From positions 124,001 through 188,000 of the forward strand of contig NZ_JBFRXN010000003.1 in NCBI RefSeq assembly GCF_040947875.1: a DNA stretch of 64,000 bases, given 5' to 3'. The DNA is from Pseudomonas sp. MYb118. GTDB taxonomy: Bacteria > Pseudomonadota > Gammaproteobacteria > Pseudomonadales > Pseudomonadaceae. Of the stretch, positions 52,750 through 57,483 are shown piece after piece (the first letter of the stretch is position 1; each line of letters begins with the position of its first letter). A program made the translations under genes and the position numbers. The notes below the pieces were generated by a model. That model did not search any database. It was not told the DNA's origin and saw only the letters and a program-made list of their open reading frames with translations.

Positions 52750-53823
52750 TCAGCAACGGGAGGCTCGCAACCGCTGCGCTGCATCGCGCAACAGTTCTTC
52801 CGTGCCGCTCCAGCCCAGGCAGCCATCGGTCACCGACACGCCGTACTTGAGTGAAGCCGACAATGGCTGGCAGCCCTCGAACAGATGGCTCTCGATCATC
52901 ATGCCGATCAGCGAGCGATCACCTTGCAGGCGTTGTTCCAGCACATCGTTGAACACGGCCGGTTGACGCAGTGGGTCCTTGCCGCTGTTGGCGTGGCTGC
53001 AGTCGACCATGATCCGTGCCGGAATTTTCAGCTTGGTCAGGTCGGCGTTGATCTGGGCAACGCTGGCGCGGTCGTAGTTGGGGCCGCGATGGCCGCCGCG
53101 CAGCACCAGGTGGGTGTCGGGGTTGCCCGGGGTCTGAATGATTGCCGGGTGGCCCTGGCTGTCGACGCCGAAATGCCGGTGCGGGTGGGCGGCCGAGCGC
53201 ATGGCGTCGCTGGCTACGCCGACGCCGCCGTCGGTGCCGTTCTTGAAGCCGACCGGCATGTTCAGGCCGCTGGCCATTTCCCGGTGGATCTGCGATTCGG
53301 TGGTGCGCGCGCCGATGGCGACCCAGCTCAGCAGGTCGTCGAAGTAGCCGGCGGCCATCGGTTGCAGCAACTCGGTGGCGACCGGCAGGCCCAGGCGCAG
53401 CATTTCGCGCATCAGTTCGCGCGACAGGGTGAGGCCGGCGGCCATGTCGTCGCTGCCGTCCAGGTGCGGGTCGTACGCCAGGCCTTTCCAGCCGACGGTG
53501 GTGCGCGGCTTTTCCACGTAGGCGCGCATGACCAGCAGCATTTCATCGCTGACTTCGTGGGCGAGGCGGGCGAGGTTGCCGGCGTATTCCAGGGCCGATT
53601 GCGGGTCGTGGATCGAGCAGGGGCCGACGATGACCAGTAAACGGGAGTCTTCACCGTTGAGGATGGCGCGGACGGCGTCGCGGTGGGTGGCGACCTGGCG
53701 GGCGAGGTCATTGCTCAGGGGCAATTGCTGTTTGAGTTGCAATGAGCTTGGCAGGCGCAGGGTCAGCGCTTCGTTGGCAGGGCTCAGGGTGGATAGCGGC
53801 AAAGCAGAGACGGATGAGTTCAT
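52750..53823 (-). CDS. 3-deoxy-7-phosphoheptulonate (DAHP) synthase, class I
   Basis: 357 residues from the ATG at 53823 (MNSSVSALPLSTLSP; AGGA upstream). AroF/AroG-type signature: LLVIVGPCSIHDPQSALEYA, MRAYVEKPRTTVGWKGLAYDPHLDGS, SWVAIGARTTESQIHREMASGL, MPVGFKNGTDG, MVDCSHANSGKD and IGMMIESHLFEG, with the metal-binding Cys (PCSI), His and Glu. It condenses PEP and erythrose 4-phosphate, the first step of aromatic amino-acid synthesis. N-terminal extension of ~45 residues is where allosteric Tyr/Phe/Trp control resides in this class. Which amino acid inhibits cannot be read. The 480 bp upstream hold a leader-peptide and terminator system rich in aromatic codons. Confidence 0.93.
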   Translation of the reverse strand: MNSSVSALPLSTLSPANEALTLRLPSSLQLKQQLPLSNDLARQVATHRDAVRAILNGEDSRLLVIVGPCSIHDPQSALEYAGNLARLAHEVSDEMLLVMRAYVEKPRTTVGWKGLAYDPHLDGSDDMAAGLTLSRELMREMLRLGLPVATELLQPMAAGYFDDLLSWVAIGARTTESQIHREMASGLNMPVGFKNGTDGGVGVASDAMRSAAHPHRHFGVDSQGHPAIIQTPGNPDTHLVLRGGHRGPNYDRASVAQINADLTKLKIPARIMVDCSHANSGKDPLRQPAVFNDVLEQRLQGDRSLIGMMIESHLFEGCQPLSASLKYGVSVTDGCLGWSGTEELLRDAAQRLRASRC

Positions 53824-53871
53824 GTTCAGGCTTCCTGGGCGAGCGGCGGGTTCGTTCCCGCGCACTCGGCC

Positions 53872-54024
53872 CTACAGGGGTGTTCGACAATTGGCCAAAT
53901 TGGCTGCGTGTGTGTGCTTGCCACCAATGGGTGACCGATCGGAGGCGGCAGGCTGTCCCGAACGGAGGCTGCTAAATCGCCAGGCGGTAAAGGTGTCGTA
54001 GCGGTAATAGGTGGCGTAGTTCAT
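53872..54024 (-). CDS. Second aromatic-rich small ORF upstream of DAHP synthase
   Basis: 50 codons starting MNYATYYRYDTFTAWRF: four Tyr in the first nine residues, then Phe, Trp and Phe by residue 17. GAGGA lies 9-10 bp before the ATG, a better ribosome-binding site than most genes here. The remaining 33 residues have no special composition, ending CRTPL-TAG at 53872. It begins just after the U-rich 3' end of the terminator and is in the same frame as DAHP synthase, 48 bp beyond its stop. It looks like a second regulatory leader peptide, or a remnant of one. That is inference from composition and position. Confidence 0.6.
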   Translation of the reverse strand: MNYATYYRYDTFTAWRFSSLRSGQPAASDRSPIGGKHTHAANLANCRTPL

Positions 54025-54072
54025 GTCGTGAATCCTCAAAATGTCTGGTTGTTGCAAAAAAGGGTGGGGCTG

Positions 54073-54111
54073 AAAAAACAAAACCCCCGGTCGGGAGGCC
54101 GACCGGGGGTT
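54073..54111 (-). terminator. Attenuator terminator in the DAHP synthase leader
   Basis: On the minus strand AACCCCCGGTCGG, a 4-base loop, CCGACCGGGGGTT, then TTGTTTTTT: a 13-bp GC-rich stem and U tract between the first leader peptide and the second small ORF. In the plus direction it lacks a T run. Confidence 0.88.
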
Positions 54112-54157
54112 GAGAAATCTCTGGTGGCGACCCGTTCAAGTGGGCGCCATTTGGGTA

Positions 54158-54286
54158 TCAGGCGCGCCAGTGGCTAAACCAATACCCAAAATAAAAGCTG
54201 ACCGAAGCACAAACACCGTTCGCCCGGGCAGCCGCAACCGAGCGCGGGGCGCTGGCGGTACGAAGCTGTGAGAGGGCGTTGAACAT
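54158..54286 (-). CDS. Aromatic leader peptide of DAHP synthase
   Basis: 42 codons from the ATG at 54286 with GGAGAC upstream. Residues 31-40 read FYFGYWFSHW: three Phe, two Tyr and two Trp in ten codons, directly before the stop codon at 54158. It precedes a strong terminator 47 bp downstream and lies about 18 bp after the predicted transcription start, which is the full attenuation arrangement. The codons TTTGGGTAT can pair with ATACCCAAA just behind the stop codon (9 bp), giving a 1:2 hairpin that a stalled ribosome would disrupt. The N-terminal 30 residues are unremarkable. Control by charged tRNA(Phe/Tyr/Trp) is inferred. Confidence 0.78.
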   Translation of the reverse strand: MFNALSQLRTASAPRSVAAARANGVCASVSFYFGYWFSHWRA

Positions 54287-54310
54287 GGTCTGTCTCCGAT
54301 GGATGGACCG

Positions 54311-54340
54311 AGCTTACTAGAGGCCGGTAGGCGGATTCAA
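54311..54340 (-). promoter_or_regulatory. Predicted sigma-70 promoter of the DAHP synthase leader
   Basis: On the minus strand TTGAAT (54340-54335) and TAAGCT (54316-54311) at 18-bp spacing; start would fall near 54304, giving a short 5' untranslated region before the leader peptide. Confidence 0.6.
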
Positions 54341-54425
54341 TCAGAAATTGCTATCAATCGCCGATGGCGTTTGCTATCGCTTGGGTGTGAAACTTCCAAC
54401 TCATCAACCCGCGCCCAGTCGAACC

Positions 54426-54890
54426 ATGACCTCCCAGACCTTCGCCGCCGAACTGCAATGGCGCCCGGCAACGGCCACCGACCTGGCCTTCGCCCGCGAC
54501 CTGACGTGCCAGAACATGCTGCGCTATTACATCCAGCACGACCTGTTGTGGCAGGACGAAGCCTTCGACGTGGCCTGGGCCGGGCGGGACAATCGGGTGA
54601 TCGTGCACGGCGATGCCCGGCTGGGGTTCGTCAGCCTCAGTCGTGACGCCAGGGCCCTGTACATCCGCGAGTTGCACATCGTCGAAGCGTTTCGGGGGCA
54701 GGGTGCCGGTTCCTGGGTGTTCGATCAGGTTTTGGCCCTGGCCGGCCTGGAACGACGCCCGGCCCTGCGCTTGACCGTGTTTGAAAATAATCCGGCAAAA
54801 AAGCTTTACAGCAGAAAGGGCCTGGCGGTGGTCGGCAGGGACGAATGTTTCCTCAGAATGCAGTGCGACATTGCCTGCGCAAATCGCTGA
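54426..54890 (+). CDS. GNAT-family N-acetyltransferase
   Basis: 154 residues from the ATG at 54426 (MTSQTFAAELQWRPATATDL). GNAT fold: WRPATATDLAFARDLTCQNM at the start, ALYIRELHIVEAFRGQGAGSWVFDQVL with the acetyl-CoA loop (R-G-Q-G-A-G) near residues 80-106, and LTVFENNPAKKLYSRKGLAVVG near residue 120. Substrate unknown. No ribosome-binding site is obvious, and an in-frame TTG at 54348 is a less likely start because it lies over the divergent promoter of the aromatic leader. Single gene, 125 bp before gacA. Confidence 0.85.
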   Translation: MTSQTFAAELQWRPATATDLAFARDLTCQNMLRYYIQHDLLWQDEAFDVAWAGRDNRVIVHGDARLGFVSLSRDARALYIRELHIVEAFRGQGAGSWVFDQVLALAGLERRPALRLTVFENNPAKKLYSRKGLAVVGRDECFLRMQCDIACANR

Positions 54891-55015
54891 GACACATATA
54901 AGACGAGCCTTTCAAGATGTATTGAAACTTTTTATCTGGCGCTTGCCGCTAGGTCTGCCAAGCGCTTTTTGCTAAGGTGTCGGCAACTCAACAAGACCAA
55001 TCACGAGGTGTCTGC

Positions 55016-55657
55016 TTGATTAGGGTGCTAGTAGTCGATGACCATGATCTCGTTCGTACAGGCATTACACGGATGCTGGCTGACATCGACGGCCTGCAAG
55101 TGGTCGGCCAGGCGGAGTCCGGGGAAGAGTCCCTGCTCAAGGCGCGTGAGTTGAAACCCGATGTGGTGCTGATGGACGTGAAGATGCCTGGCATCGGCGG
55201 TCTGGAAGCCACCCGAAAGTTGTTGCGCAGCCACCCCGATATCAAGGTGGTCGCGGTCACGGTGTGCGAGGAAGACCCGTTCCCCACCCGACTGCTGCAA
55301 GCCGGCGCCGCCGGTTACCTGACCAAGGGCGCGGGCTTGCCGGAAATGGTCCAGGCCATTCGCCTGGTGTTCGCCGGGCAACGCTACATCAGCCCGCAGA
55401 TCGCCCAGCAACTGGCGATCAAATCCTTCCAGCCGACCAACGATTCGCCGTTCGATGCCTTGTCCGAGCGGGAAATCCAGATTGCCCTGATGATCGTCGG
55501 CTGCCAGAAAGTGCAGATCATTTCCGACAAGTTGTGCCTGTCGCCCAAAACCGTAAACACCTACCGTTACCGAATTTTCGAAAAGCTTTCGATCAGCAGC
55601 GATGTCGAGTTGACGCTGCTGGCGGTTCGTCACGGCATGGTTGATGCCAGCCTCTGA
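55016..55657 (+). CDS. gacA: Global response regulator GacA
   Basis: 213 residues from the TTG at 55016, giving [20 protein letters not shown] and the exact length of Pseudomonas GacA; an upstream in-frame ATG at 54977 would add 13 unrelated residues. Receiver with Asp in [13 protein letters not shown] (residue ~54) and a LuxR-type HTH ([36 protein letters not shown]). Phosphorylated by GacS, it activates rsm small RNA genes and so secondary metabolism and biofilm traits. The residue near 105, in GYLTKGAG, and [17 protein letters not shown] fit the family. uvrC follows after 2 bp. Confidence 0.96.
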
Positions 55658-55659
55658 AA

Positions 55660-57483
55660 ATGACCGAAACCTTTGATCCAAGCGCGTTCCTGTCGACCGT
55701 CAGTGGACGCCCCGGCGTCTACCGCATGTTCGACAGCGAGGCGCGTCTGCTCTATGTCGGCAAGGCCAAGAACCTCAAGAATCGCCTGTCGAGTTACTTC
55801 CGCAAGACGGGCCTGGCCCCCAAGACCGCCGCGCTGGTGGCGCGTATCGCCCAGGTCGAAACGACGATCACGTCCAATGAAACCGAAGCCCTGTTGCTCG
55901 AGCAGACGCTGATCAAGGAATGGCGTCCGCCGTACAACATCCTGCTGCGCGATGACAAATCCTACCCGTACGTGTTTTTGTCCGACGGCCAGTTCCCACG
56001 CCTGAGCATTCATCGCGGGGCGAAGAAGGCCAAGGGCAAATACTTCGGCCCCTATCCCAGCGCCGGGGCGATCCGCGAAAGCCTGAGCCTGCTGCAAAAG
56101 ACCTTTTTCGTCCGCCAGTGCGAGGACAGCTACTACAAGAACCGCACGCGCCCGTGCCTGCAATACCAGATCAAGCGCTGCAAGGCGCCTTGCGTCGGGT
56201 TGGTGGAGCCCAAGGTGTACGCCGAAGACGTGCGCCACTCGGTGATGTTTCTCGAAGGGCGCAGCAATGCCCTGACCGACGAATTGTCGGCGGGCATGGA
56301 AGAGGCGGCGATCAACCTCGAATTCGAGCGCGCCGCCGAACTGCGTGACCAGATCGGCCTGCTGCGCCGGGTCCAGGATCAGCAGAGCATGGAAGGCGGC
56401 TCGGGCGATGTCGACGTGATCGCTGCGTTCGTCAACCCGGGCGGCGCCTGCGTGCATCTGATCAGCGTGCGCGGCGGCCGGGTGCTGGGCAGCAAGAACT
56501 TCTTTCCGCAGGTGGGTATTGAAGAGGACGTCTCCGAAGTCATGGCGGCGTTTCTCGGCCAGTACTTCGTCAGCAGTCCCGAGCGGGACTTGCCGAGCGA
56601 ACTGATCGTCAACGTGGTTCACGAAGACTTCCCCGCGCTGATCGAGGCCATTCACGAGCTGCGCGGTCGCGAACTGACCATCAGCCACCGGGTGCGTGGC
56701 ACGCGGGCACGCTGGCAACAACTGGCGGTGACCAACGCCGAACAGGCCCTGGGCGCACGCCTGGCCAACCGCCAACACGTGGCCGCGCGTTTCGACGCCC
56801 TGGCCGAAGTGCTGAACCTGGATGAACCGCCGCAGCGCCTTGAGTGCTACGACATCAGCCACTCCAGCGGCGAAGCCACCGTGGCCTCCTGCGTGGTGTT
56901 CGGCCCGGAAGGCCCGATCAAGGGTGATTACCGACGCTATAACATCGAAGGCGTGACCGCCGGCGATGACTACGCGGCGATGCACCAGGCGCTGACCCGC
57001 CGCTTCAGCAAACTGAAGGACGGGGAGGGCAAGCTGCCCGACATCCTCCTGGTGGACGGCGGCAAGGGCCAGTTGTCCATGGCCCGCGACGTGCTCAACG
57101 AGCTGGCGGTGCCGGACCTGATCCTGCTCGGCGTGGCCAAGGGCGCTACGCGCAAGGCCGGTTTCGAAACCCTGTACCTCAACGATGCCGCCCACGAATT
57201 CACCCTGCGCGGCGATTCCCCGGCGCTGCACCTGATCCAGCAGATCCGCGACGAGGCCCACCGGTTCGCCATCACCGGCCACCGCGCACGCCGTGGCAAA
57301 ACCCGCCGCACGTCTACACTCGAAGGCGTTGCGGGGGTAGGGCCGACGCGTCGGCGCGACTTGTTGAAACATTTTGGTGGATTGCAGGAGCTGTCTCGTG
57401 CCAGCATCGAAGAAATCGCCAAAGCCCCCGGGATCAGTAAAAAGCTCGCAGAGTTGATTTATGCAAATCTGCACAGCGAGTAG
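55660..57483 (+). CDS. uvrC: Excinuclease ABC subunit C
   Basis: 607 residues. GIY-YIG nuclease domain ([27 protein letters not shown]), UVR motif ([28 protein letters not shown]) near residue 210, the RNase H-like C-terminal nuclease ([34 protein letters not shown]) and a terminal helix-hairpin-helix pair ([20 protein letters not shown]). It incises on both sides of a lesion in nucleotide excision repair with UvrB. The gacA(uvrY)-uvrC-pgsA order is conserved across gammaproteobacteria. Confidence 0.97.

Follow-up and report, generated by a model that had tools for sequence, protein, structure and literature searches.

Ribosome-mediated (leader-peptide) transcription attenuation is a well-established kind of control in which, as in trpL and pheL of E. 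coli, the position of the ribosome on the cognate codons selects either the terminator or the antiterminator; in trpL, the antiterminator is a direct 2:3 pairing. Attenuation of trpE and trpGDC in P. putida is said to have been described by Olekhnovich and Gussin in 2001. An aromatic leader peptide in front of a DAHP synthase gene is on record in Corynebacterium glutamicum, where aroF is preceded by the aroR leader with Phe-Tyr-Phe (Neshat et al. 2014, PMC11802643; PMC4046766); there, stalling under Phe limitation is reported to raise transcription, Tyr reportedly being without influence (PMC11802643). The report on the uORFC-13-1 motif of Acholeplasma describes an upstream ORF with an adjacent terminator stem before aroF and recalls an attenuation hypothesis for E. 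coli aroF (PMC8632094). Tandem attenuators, mgtM and mgtP, with two short ORFs, each linked to a signal, are reported for mgtCBR of Salmonella (PMC3641672). No aromatic attenuator upstream of a Pseudomonas DAHP synthase gene turned up among the matches listed in the literature searched, which was represented in part by excerpts and left most subscription journals outside. As for P15, an RNA catalogued by Rfam as an sRNA, published accounts call it an RNA of unknown function in P. fluorescens, in a 2017 paper that also reports a rise of its level in an hfq mutant (PMC5627042), suspect it, from synteny, to be a riboswitch (PMC2527527) and indicate that another screen missed it (PMC2375449).

The window, that is, the entire stretch of 64,000 nucleotides of Pseudomonas sp. 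MYb118 DNA analyzed here, carries a minus-strand leader region with aroF (52750..53823(-), ATG at 53823) on one side and a divergent ORF for a GNAT-type acetyltransferase on the other. NCBIfam aroFGH (442.6 bits) and Pfam PF00793 (261.4 bits) identify the 357-amino acid product of aroF as a DAHP synthase of type I, as the preliminary description of this DNA had it. Further neighbors, at 54977-57483 (+), presumably encode a GacA/UvrY-type response regulator and UvrC. The leader contains two conserved ORFs, each with a ribosome-binding site (hereinafter leader 1 and leader 2). It appears highly probable (roughly 85%), judging by sequence comparison and modeled folds, that this region is a ribosome-mediated transcription attenuator that would tie aroF to the charging of aromatic tRNAs, and that P15 would be its terminated transcript. 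What computation shows in this regard is that both ORFs and their codons are conserved, that alternative helices recur in other families and that the element is linked to a single aroF paralogue. The preliminary description, which proposed an aromatic leader-peptide attenuator before DAHP synthase, was right in kind, given the conserved leader, the terminator and what now looks like an antiterminator, but it was incomplete, having missed both the identity with P15 and the second leader ORF.

The first leader ORF, P15 and their distribution

Leader 1 is an ORF of 42 codons (54158..54286(-)) that is preceded by GGAG, encodes the peptide MFNALSQLRTASAPRSVAAARANGVCASVSFYFGYWFSHWRA and ends with SFYFGYWFSHWRA, so that the previously noted C-terminal FYFGYWFSHW is confirmed. 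In all of the 56 loci compared (the window, 54 other loci of the genus and G093, a genome from another family), an ORF ends in an aromatic run with Gly-Tyr-Trp. At the codon level, this conservation of aromatic residues among relatives, on which the preliminary description had staked its proposal, is complete for Gly-Tyr-Trp (56 of 56); the residue that follows is Phe in 54 loci and Tyr in two, the second Trp of the run is kept in 39 and lost in 17, and the N-terminal part is variable in both sequence and length. With its ribosome-binding site and codons for the end products of the pathway, leader 1 is the kind of short ORF that is expected of a leader-peptide attenuator. As to the earlier suggestion that all three aromatic tRNAs act at once, Phe, Tyr and one Trp codon of the run are kept in all 56 loci, but the second Trp is not, and simultaneous control by Phe, Tyr and Trp tRNAs is not established. 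By the pairing map, a ribosome located at the Trp codon would already reach the 5' edge of the pairing segment C' (see below), so that the Phe and Tyr codons would be better placed.

The Gly of the run, which is kept in 56 of the 56 loci, goes beyond what charging alone would need and could be taken to indicate that leader 1 is a sequence-specific arrest peptide (GYWF) instead of a sensor of codon charging. However, the GGG is part of segment A, which pairs with B, the residues before the run and after Phe differ between lineages, and Phe and Tyr interchange at several positions of the run, all of which makes an arrest peptide very improbable. The peptides of leader 1 and leader 2 have no family match in NCBIfam or Pfam, and their homologues (60 and 105 for the two leaders) are, among the matches listed, unnamed, 'hypothetical' or 'uncharacterized', apart from one stray label. 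Upstream of the ORF (54314..54340(-)), the promoter-like boxes described before, TTGAAT (54340-54335) and TAGTAA (54319-54314), are indeed present, and a loose TTGANN-N15-18-TANNN[TA] pair precedes leader 1 in 43 of 55 loci, but the sigma-70 scan called no promoter.

The end of leader 1 and the region following it are covered by a full-length match to Rfam RF00627, P15 (54084..54200(-); 129.3 bits, E 5.6e-28, against a gathering score of 70). The two are the same element, although Rfam lists an sRNA gene, and the P15 'sRNA' is read here as the putative terminated product of the aromatic attenuator. A weak match of 25 bits on the opposite strand (54071-54109 (+)) arises solely because the terminator stem is palindromic.

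P15 scores above the cut-off in 55 of the 95 genomes, and all 55 are among the 59 genomes of the same genus; G093 yields a weak match. In four members of the genus (G014, G027, G041 and G042), P15 and this aroF paralogue are both absent, and each of these genomes has a single DAHP synthase match, which shares 52-54% identity with the query; two matches each are found in the five other genomes searched (G000, G001, G012, G019 and G093). No small ORF with a ribosome-binding site was found in the 660 nt upstream of the second DAHP synthase paralogue in the genome from which the window comes. Judging by these loci, the element follows one DAHP synthase paralogue. An order-wide search (E <= 1e-125) gave a match in 19 of 194 genomes (four from the same genus, four from other genera of the family and 11 from two other families), and leader 1 is present in all four loci of the other genera and in all 11 loci of the two other families. 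The class-wide search (E <= 1e-118; matches in 7 of 369 genomes) contributed three new loci; in L237, which is labelled as belonging to the same class only, the leader ends YFYGYWFSRYGV and the terminator is present, and in two class-wide loci from very small genomes neither leader nor terminator was found.

When eight loci from other families or other genera (L108, L109, L111, L113, L114, L116, L154 and L185, with L001 as the control) were scanned for P15, the cut-off was reached by L108 alone (1171-1288, 70.6 bits); since leader 1 is present in the others, the Rfam model of P15 looks narrow. When named genomes were scanned with a pattern for the cores of the two leaders, at least 120 stretches matched, which are selected by pattern and give no measure of frequency; these come mostly from Pseudomonas and Stutzerimonas, with Denitrificimonas, Halotalea and Alloalcanivorax included among the matches listed. 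Two records that bear the names Pantoea sp. Ap-967 and Paucimonas sp. in their titles (L181 and L140) also carry a locus of the Pseudomonas type; they might be mistitled or contain transferred DNA.

The catalogue entry in Rfam, the altered level in the hfq mutant (PMC5627042) and the near-invariance of the terminator arms in the alignment would all fit a trans-acting sRNA that overlaps a small ORF by chance and is conserved for pairing with other mRNAs. Such an sRNA would not be expected to have conserved aromatic codons and alternative helices or to lie always before one aroF paralogue; in 170 of 175 loci, DAHP synthase starts at a distance of 40-320 nt downstream of the leader 2 element (in the other five, the sequence is too short for this distance to be scored). 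As the sole explanation of P15, this is highly unlikely; nevertheless, the rise in the hfq mutant leaves room for a trans role, which P15 may have alongside attenuation.

The terminator and the candidate antiterminator

An intrinsic terminator, detected by the terminator scan and in the alignment, lies between the leader 1 ORF and aroF (54073..54111(-)). It consists of a stem of 13 pairs (54111-54082), 10 of them GC, and a T-run, i.e. the GC stem and U-tract that had been reported. Terminator-like sites number three in the 1 kb scanned (two of these are nested in the 54111-54082 stem), compared with a shuffle mean of 1.0. The terminator is located before the DAHP synthase gene, as claimed, but some 250 nt ahead of where aroF starts (53823), with the second small ORF, previously overlooked, in the gap. 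No second intrinsic terminator after leader 2 was found by the scan on the minus strand in 53700-54700.

The segments that might take part in alternative pairing are all on the minus strand: A, TTTGGGTAT, within the aromatic codons (54182..54190); C', TGGCGCGCC, in the last leader codons (54161..54169), derived from cross-family comparison, folds and pair counts; B, ATACCCAAA, the partner of A (54150..54158), delineated, like A, in the alignment; C, TGGCGCCCA, the partner of either C' or D (54141..54149), from pair counts; and D, CGGGTCGCCACC, the partner of either C or the upper terminator (54123..54134), from folds and pair counts. The 9-bp hairpin across the stop codon, formed by A (54190-54182) opposite B (54158-54150), is present as described, and its core, GGGTAT:ATACCC, is largely kept among 63 aligned relatives, but the outer three pairs are often broken (in 24, 30 and 38 of the 63); the A:B helix is 80.7% paired, a weak signal given that 21 of 500 shuffles reach as much.

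The preliminary description reported no obvious antiterminator, and by eye there is no good complementary match between A and the left terminator arm. An antiterminator can nonetheless be found, in the form of a predicted relay of pairings that emerges from cross-family comparison and folding, in which C':C would free D for pairing with the terminator. Another pairing, GCCACTGG:CCGGTCGGC, which appeared in one fold of the window, was dropped since other families pointed to C':C and D:terminator. By eye, C':C is found with different letters as GGCACGCC/GGCGTGCC in L113, GGTGTGCC/GGCACACC in L114-L116, GGCGTGCC/GGCACGCC in L109 and GCGCGCCTG/CAGGCGCGC in L111 and L154, and D:terminator as GTGCTGCC/GGCAGCAC in L090 and GGTTGCC/GGTAACC in L115 and L116. 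As for covariation of the stems, which had been suggested as a check, both pairings recur across families with different letters, but the covariation is weak inside the Pseudomonadaceae, where most D:terminator pairs vary little.

In the 63 aligned sequences, 89.7% of the cells of the read-through structure are paired (shuffles, 87.0%, sd 0.3; slid controls, 36-50%), compared with 92.5% for the termination structure (shuffles, 91.4%, sd 0.2; slid controls, 36-65%), and none of the 500 shuffles reach the paired fraction of either structure; the small excess over the shuffles stems from the fact that many pairs hardly vary. For the read-through structure, the count of pairs changed on both sides is reached in 25 of 500 shuffles and that of pair types in 55 of 500; for the termination structure, pair types are reached in 284 of 500 shuffles, and its covariation score is matched at a slide of -3.

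In the modeled folds, RNA that starts just past the aromatic run folds into C':C with D:terminator in 22 of 23 representatives (L186 fails), and RNA that starts 12 nt past the leader stop folds into C:D with the terminator in 15 of the 23; with the ribosome edge in the latter place, the termination fold is not seen in L107, L109 and L111-L116. When the aromatic codons are masked, C':C with D:terminator forms in 157, 141 and 113 of 158 distinct sequences (out of 159; L056 could not be scored) for transcripts ending 3, 0 and 5 bases before the G-run, respectively; the shuffles that pass at the same three lengths number 120, 122 and 96 of 790 (12-15%), and the window's own sequence fails at the shortest length. 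With C' masked, C:D and the upper terminator stem form in 146 of the 158. The definition of C' was revised after the failing loci had been inspected; the stop-based rule, which places C' wrongly where leader 1 ends early, gave 113 of 158, against 283 of 3160 shuffles. Folding and cross-family recurrence together point to an antiterminator that depends on the ribosome position, in a fold that varies with the transcript length.

Under the attenuation model, scarcity of charged Phe-, Tyr- and perhaps Trp-tRNA would cause the ribosome to stall on FYFGYW and mask A; C' would then be free to pair with C, releasing D, which would pair with the upper terminator, and the polymerase would read through. 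With plentiful aromatic tRNA, the ribosome at the stop codon would mask C', C would pair with D, and the terminator would form. Without translation, A:B would keep C' in a loop, so termination would be expected in this case as well. That ribosomes translate and stall here in the cell, and that transcription terminates or reads through, we infer from sequence, as we do the role of leader 2 considered below.

The second leader ORF

The read-through transcript would bear, before aroF, the Tyr-rich leader 2, an ORF of 50 codons that was identified from the ORF list and the comparison of loci (53872..54024(-), with GAGGA at 54037-54033). It encodes MNYATYYRYDTFTAWRFSSLRSGQPAASDRSPIGGKHTHAANLANCRTPL, lies between the terminator and aroF and is present in 56 of 56 loci (55 in the first scan, and L081 also positive on inspection). 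Many of its codons are kept at the base level, and the element TGGCGATTT (Trp-Arg-Phe, TGG CGA TTT; 53974..53982(-)) is identical in all of the 55 loci scored. This element, including the CGA and TTT codons, is unchanged base for base even in loci whose peptide is otherwise mostly different, with L111 as the one exception; leader 1 has TGG-TTT-A in common with it. Of the 11 loci from the two other families, eight carry leader 2, with Leu for Trp in L111 (CTGCGATTT); the three where it was not found are L107, L109 and L112, so that it seems to be a separable module.

Outside the part fixed by the search pattern, the nearest start of leader 2 is an ATG with a ribosome-binding-like site in 114 of the 120 pattern-scan stretches listed (L130, L153, L205, L209, L220 and L223 lack the site at the nearest start); under a looser rule, such an ATG is found in 167 of 168 loci, the exception, L164, being a shortened sequence in that set and intact in the pattern-scan set. 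The 97 distinct N-termini of leader 2 have a mean of 3.5 Tyr in 13.1 codons, with a minimum of one. The Tyr tract is expanded to GYVGYGYGYGYGWRF in L115, compared with YFVGYGYSWRF in L116. Near the 3' end of leader 2, a CGAACAC motif (window 53886-53880 (-)) is seen again in Halotalea and in most of the loci that have the short form. In the long form of leader 2, two mutually exclusive candidate hairpins, CGxTCGG:CCGATCGG and GCCGCC:GGTGGC, looked plausible by eye, and the first of these appears in the long-group consensus fold.

The most probable role of leader 2 is to add another layer of aromatic control. In a more specific and tentative version, to which we would give somewhat less than an even chance, two sensors of aromatic charging would be stacked, with leader 1 gating transcription and leader 2 acting on aroF again, probably at the level of translation, and P15 would be a by-product of the first gate. 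If leader 2 worked as a translational attenuator, the TGGCG region would pair with the aroF start, and a stall at Tyr or Trp would free aroF translation. Such pairing is in excess among 80 representatives (own, -12.05; permuted, -11.43; p 0.0012), and long single pairings with the aroF start reach 12 bases in L065 and eight in L142. However, the excess is driven by 24 representatives with a short leader 2 (p 0.003), with none detected in the 56 long-form representatives, the window's kind (p 0.41), moving the element window by nine bases improves the score (z -4.84 compared with -3.26), and no pairing is seen in L154 and L061. Moreover, there is no fixed mRNA partner of TGGCGATTT over the 55 loci: the best site differs among loci, lying in the leader 1 ORF, which offers the longest stretch, in 39, at the aroF start in five, in late leader 2 in five, in C-D in four and in the terminator in two. 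The null result for the long form and the better score of the shifted window reduce translational attenuation to an alternative that has some support but is rather unlikely.

Alternatively, leader 2 could act through coupled re-initiation at aroF, through premature termination or decay upon stalling, or as a small protein. Such roles would be compatible with the location of the end of leader 2 close to or across the aroF start in L115 and L116, with the hairpin (53837..53872(-)) that the consensus folds of both length groups predict after the leader 2 stop and ahead of the aroF ribosome-binding site and with the base-level conservation of many codons, but are not helped by a peptide that matches no family in NCBIfam or Pfam; they are possible, at less than even odds.

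Comparison with known systems

If P15 is read as the putative terminated transcript of an aromatic attenuator, a Pseudomonas 'sRNA' that is widespread but listed without a function gains one that can be tested. A pseudomonad may, in this manner, use tRNA charging to adjust at the first step how much flux enters the aromatic compounds as a whole, and leader 2, rich in Tyr and with a nine-base element that hardly varies, opens a direct test of two-layer attenuation. Because the leader may limit aroF expression, it could be of practical use where pseudomonads are engineered for aromatics.

Like the window, the uORFC-13-1 motif combines an upstream ORF with a terminator stem before a DAHP synthase gene, but it is a different motif that, in the excerpt at hand, is reported only in Acholeplasma and environmental sequences. 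The Salmonella mgtCBR mRNA shares with the window the two short ORFs in one leader; there, the signals are ATP and proline, whereas in the window both ORFs are aromatic-rich and precede a biosynthetic gene, with a switch suggested by the comparisons for leader 1 only. The aroR leader of Corynebacterium glutamicum likewise encodes an aromatic peptide before a DAHP synthase gene, but in a distant bacterium and as one leader, the available excerpts describing neither a pairing relay nor a second leader. In trpL and pheL of E. coli, as would be the case here, the ribosome position on the cognate codons decides between terminator and antiterminator. These, along with trpE and trpGDC of P. putida, are single leaders, whereas in the window C':C is predicted to free D for the antiterminator. 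Thus, next to a known kind of attenuation, what appears to be new at this locus is the putative relay switch and the second leader.
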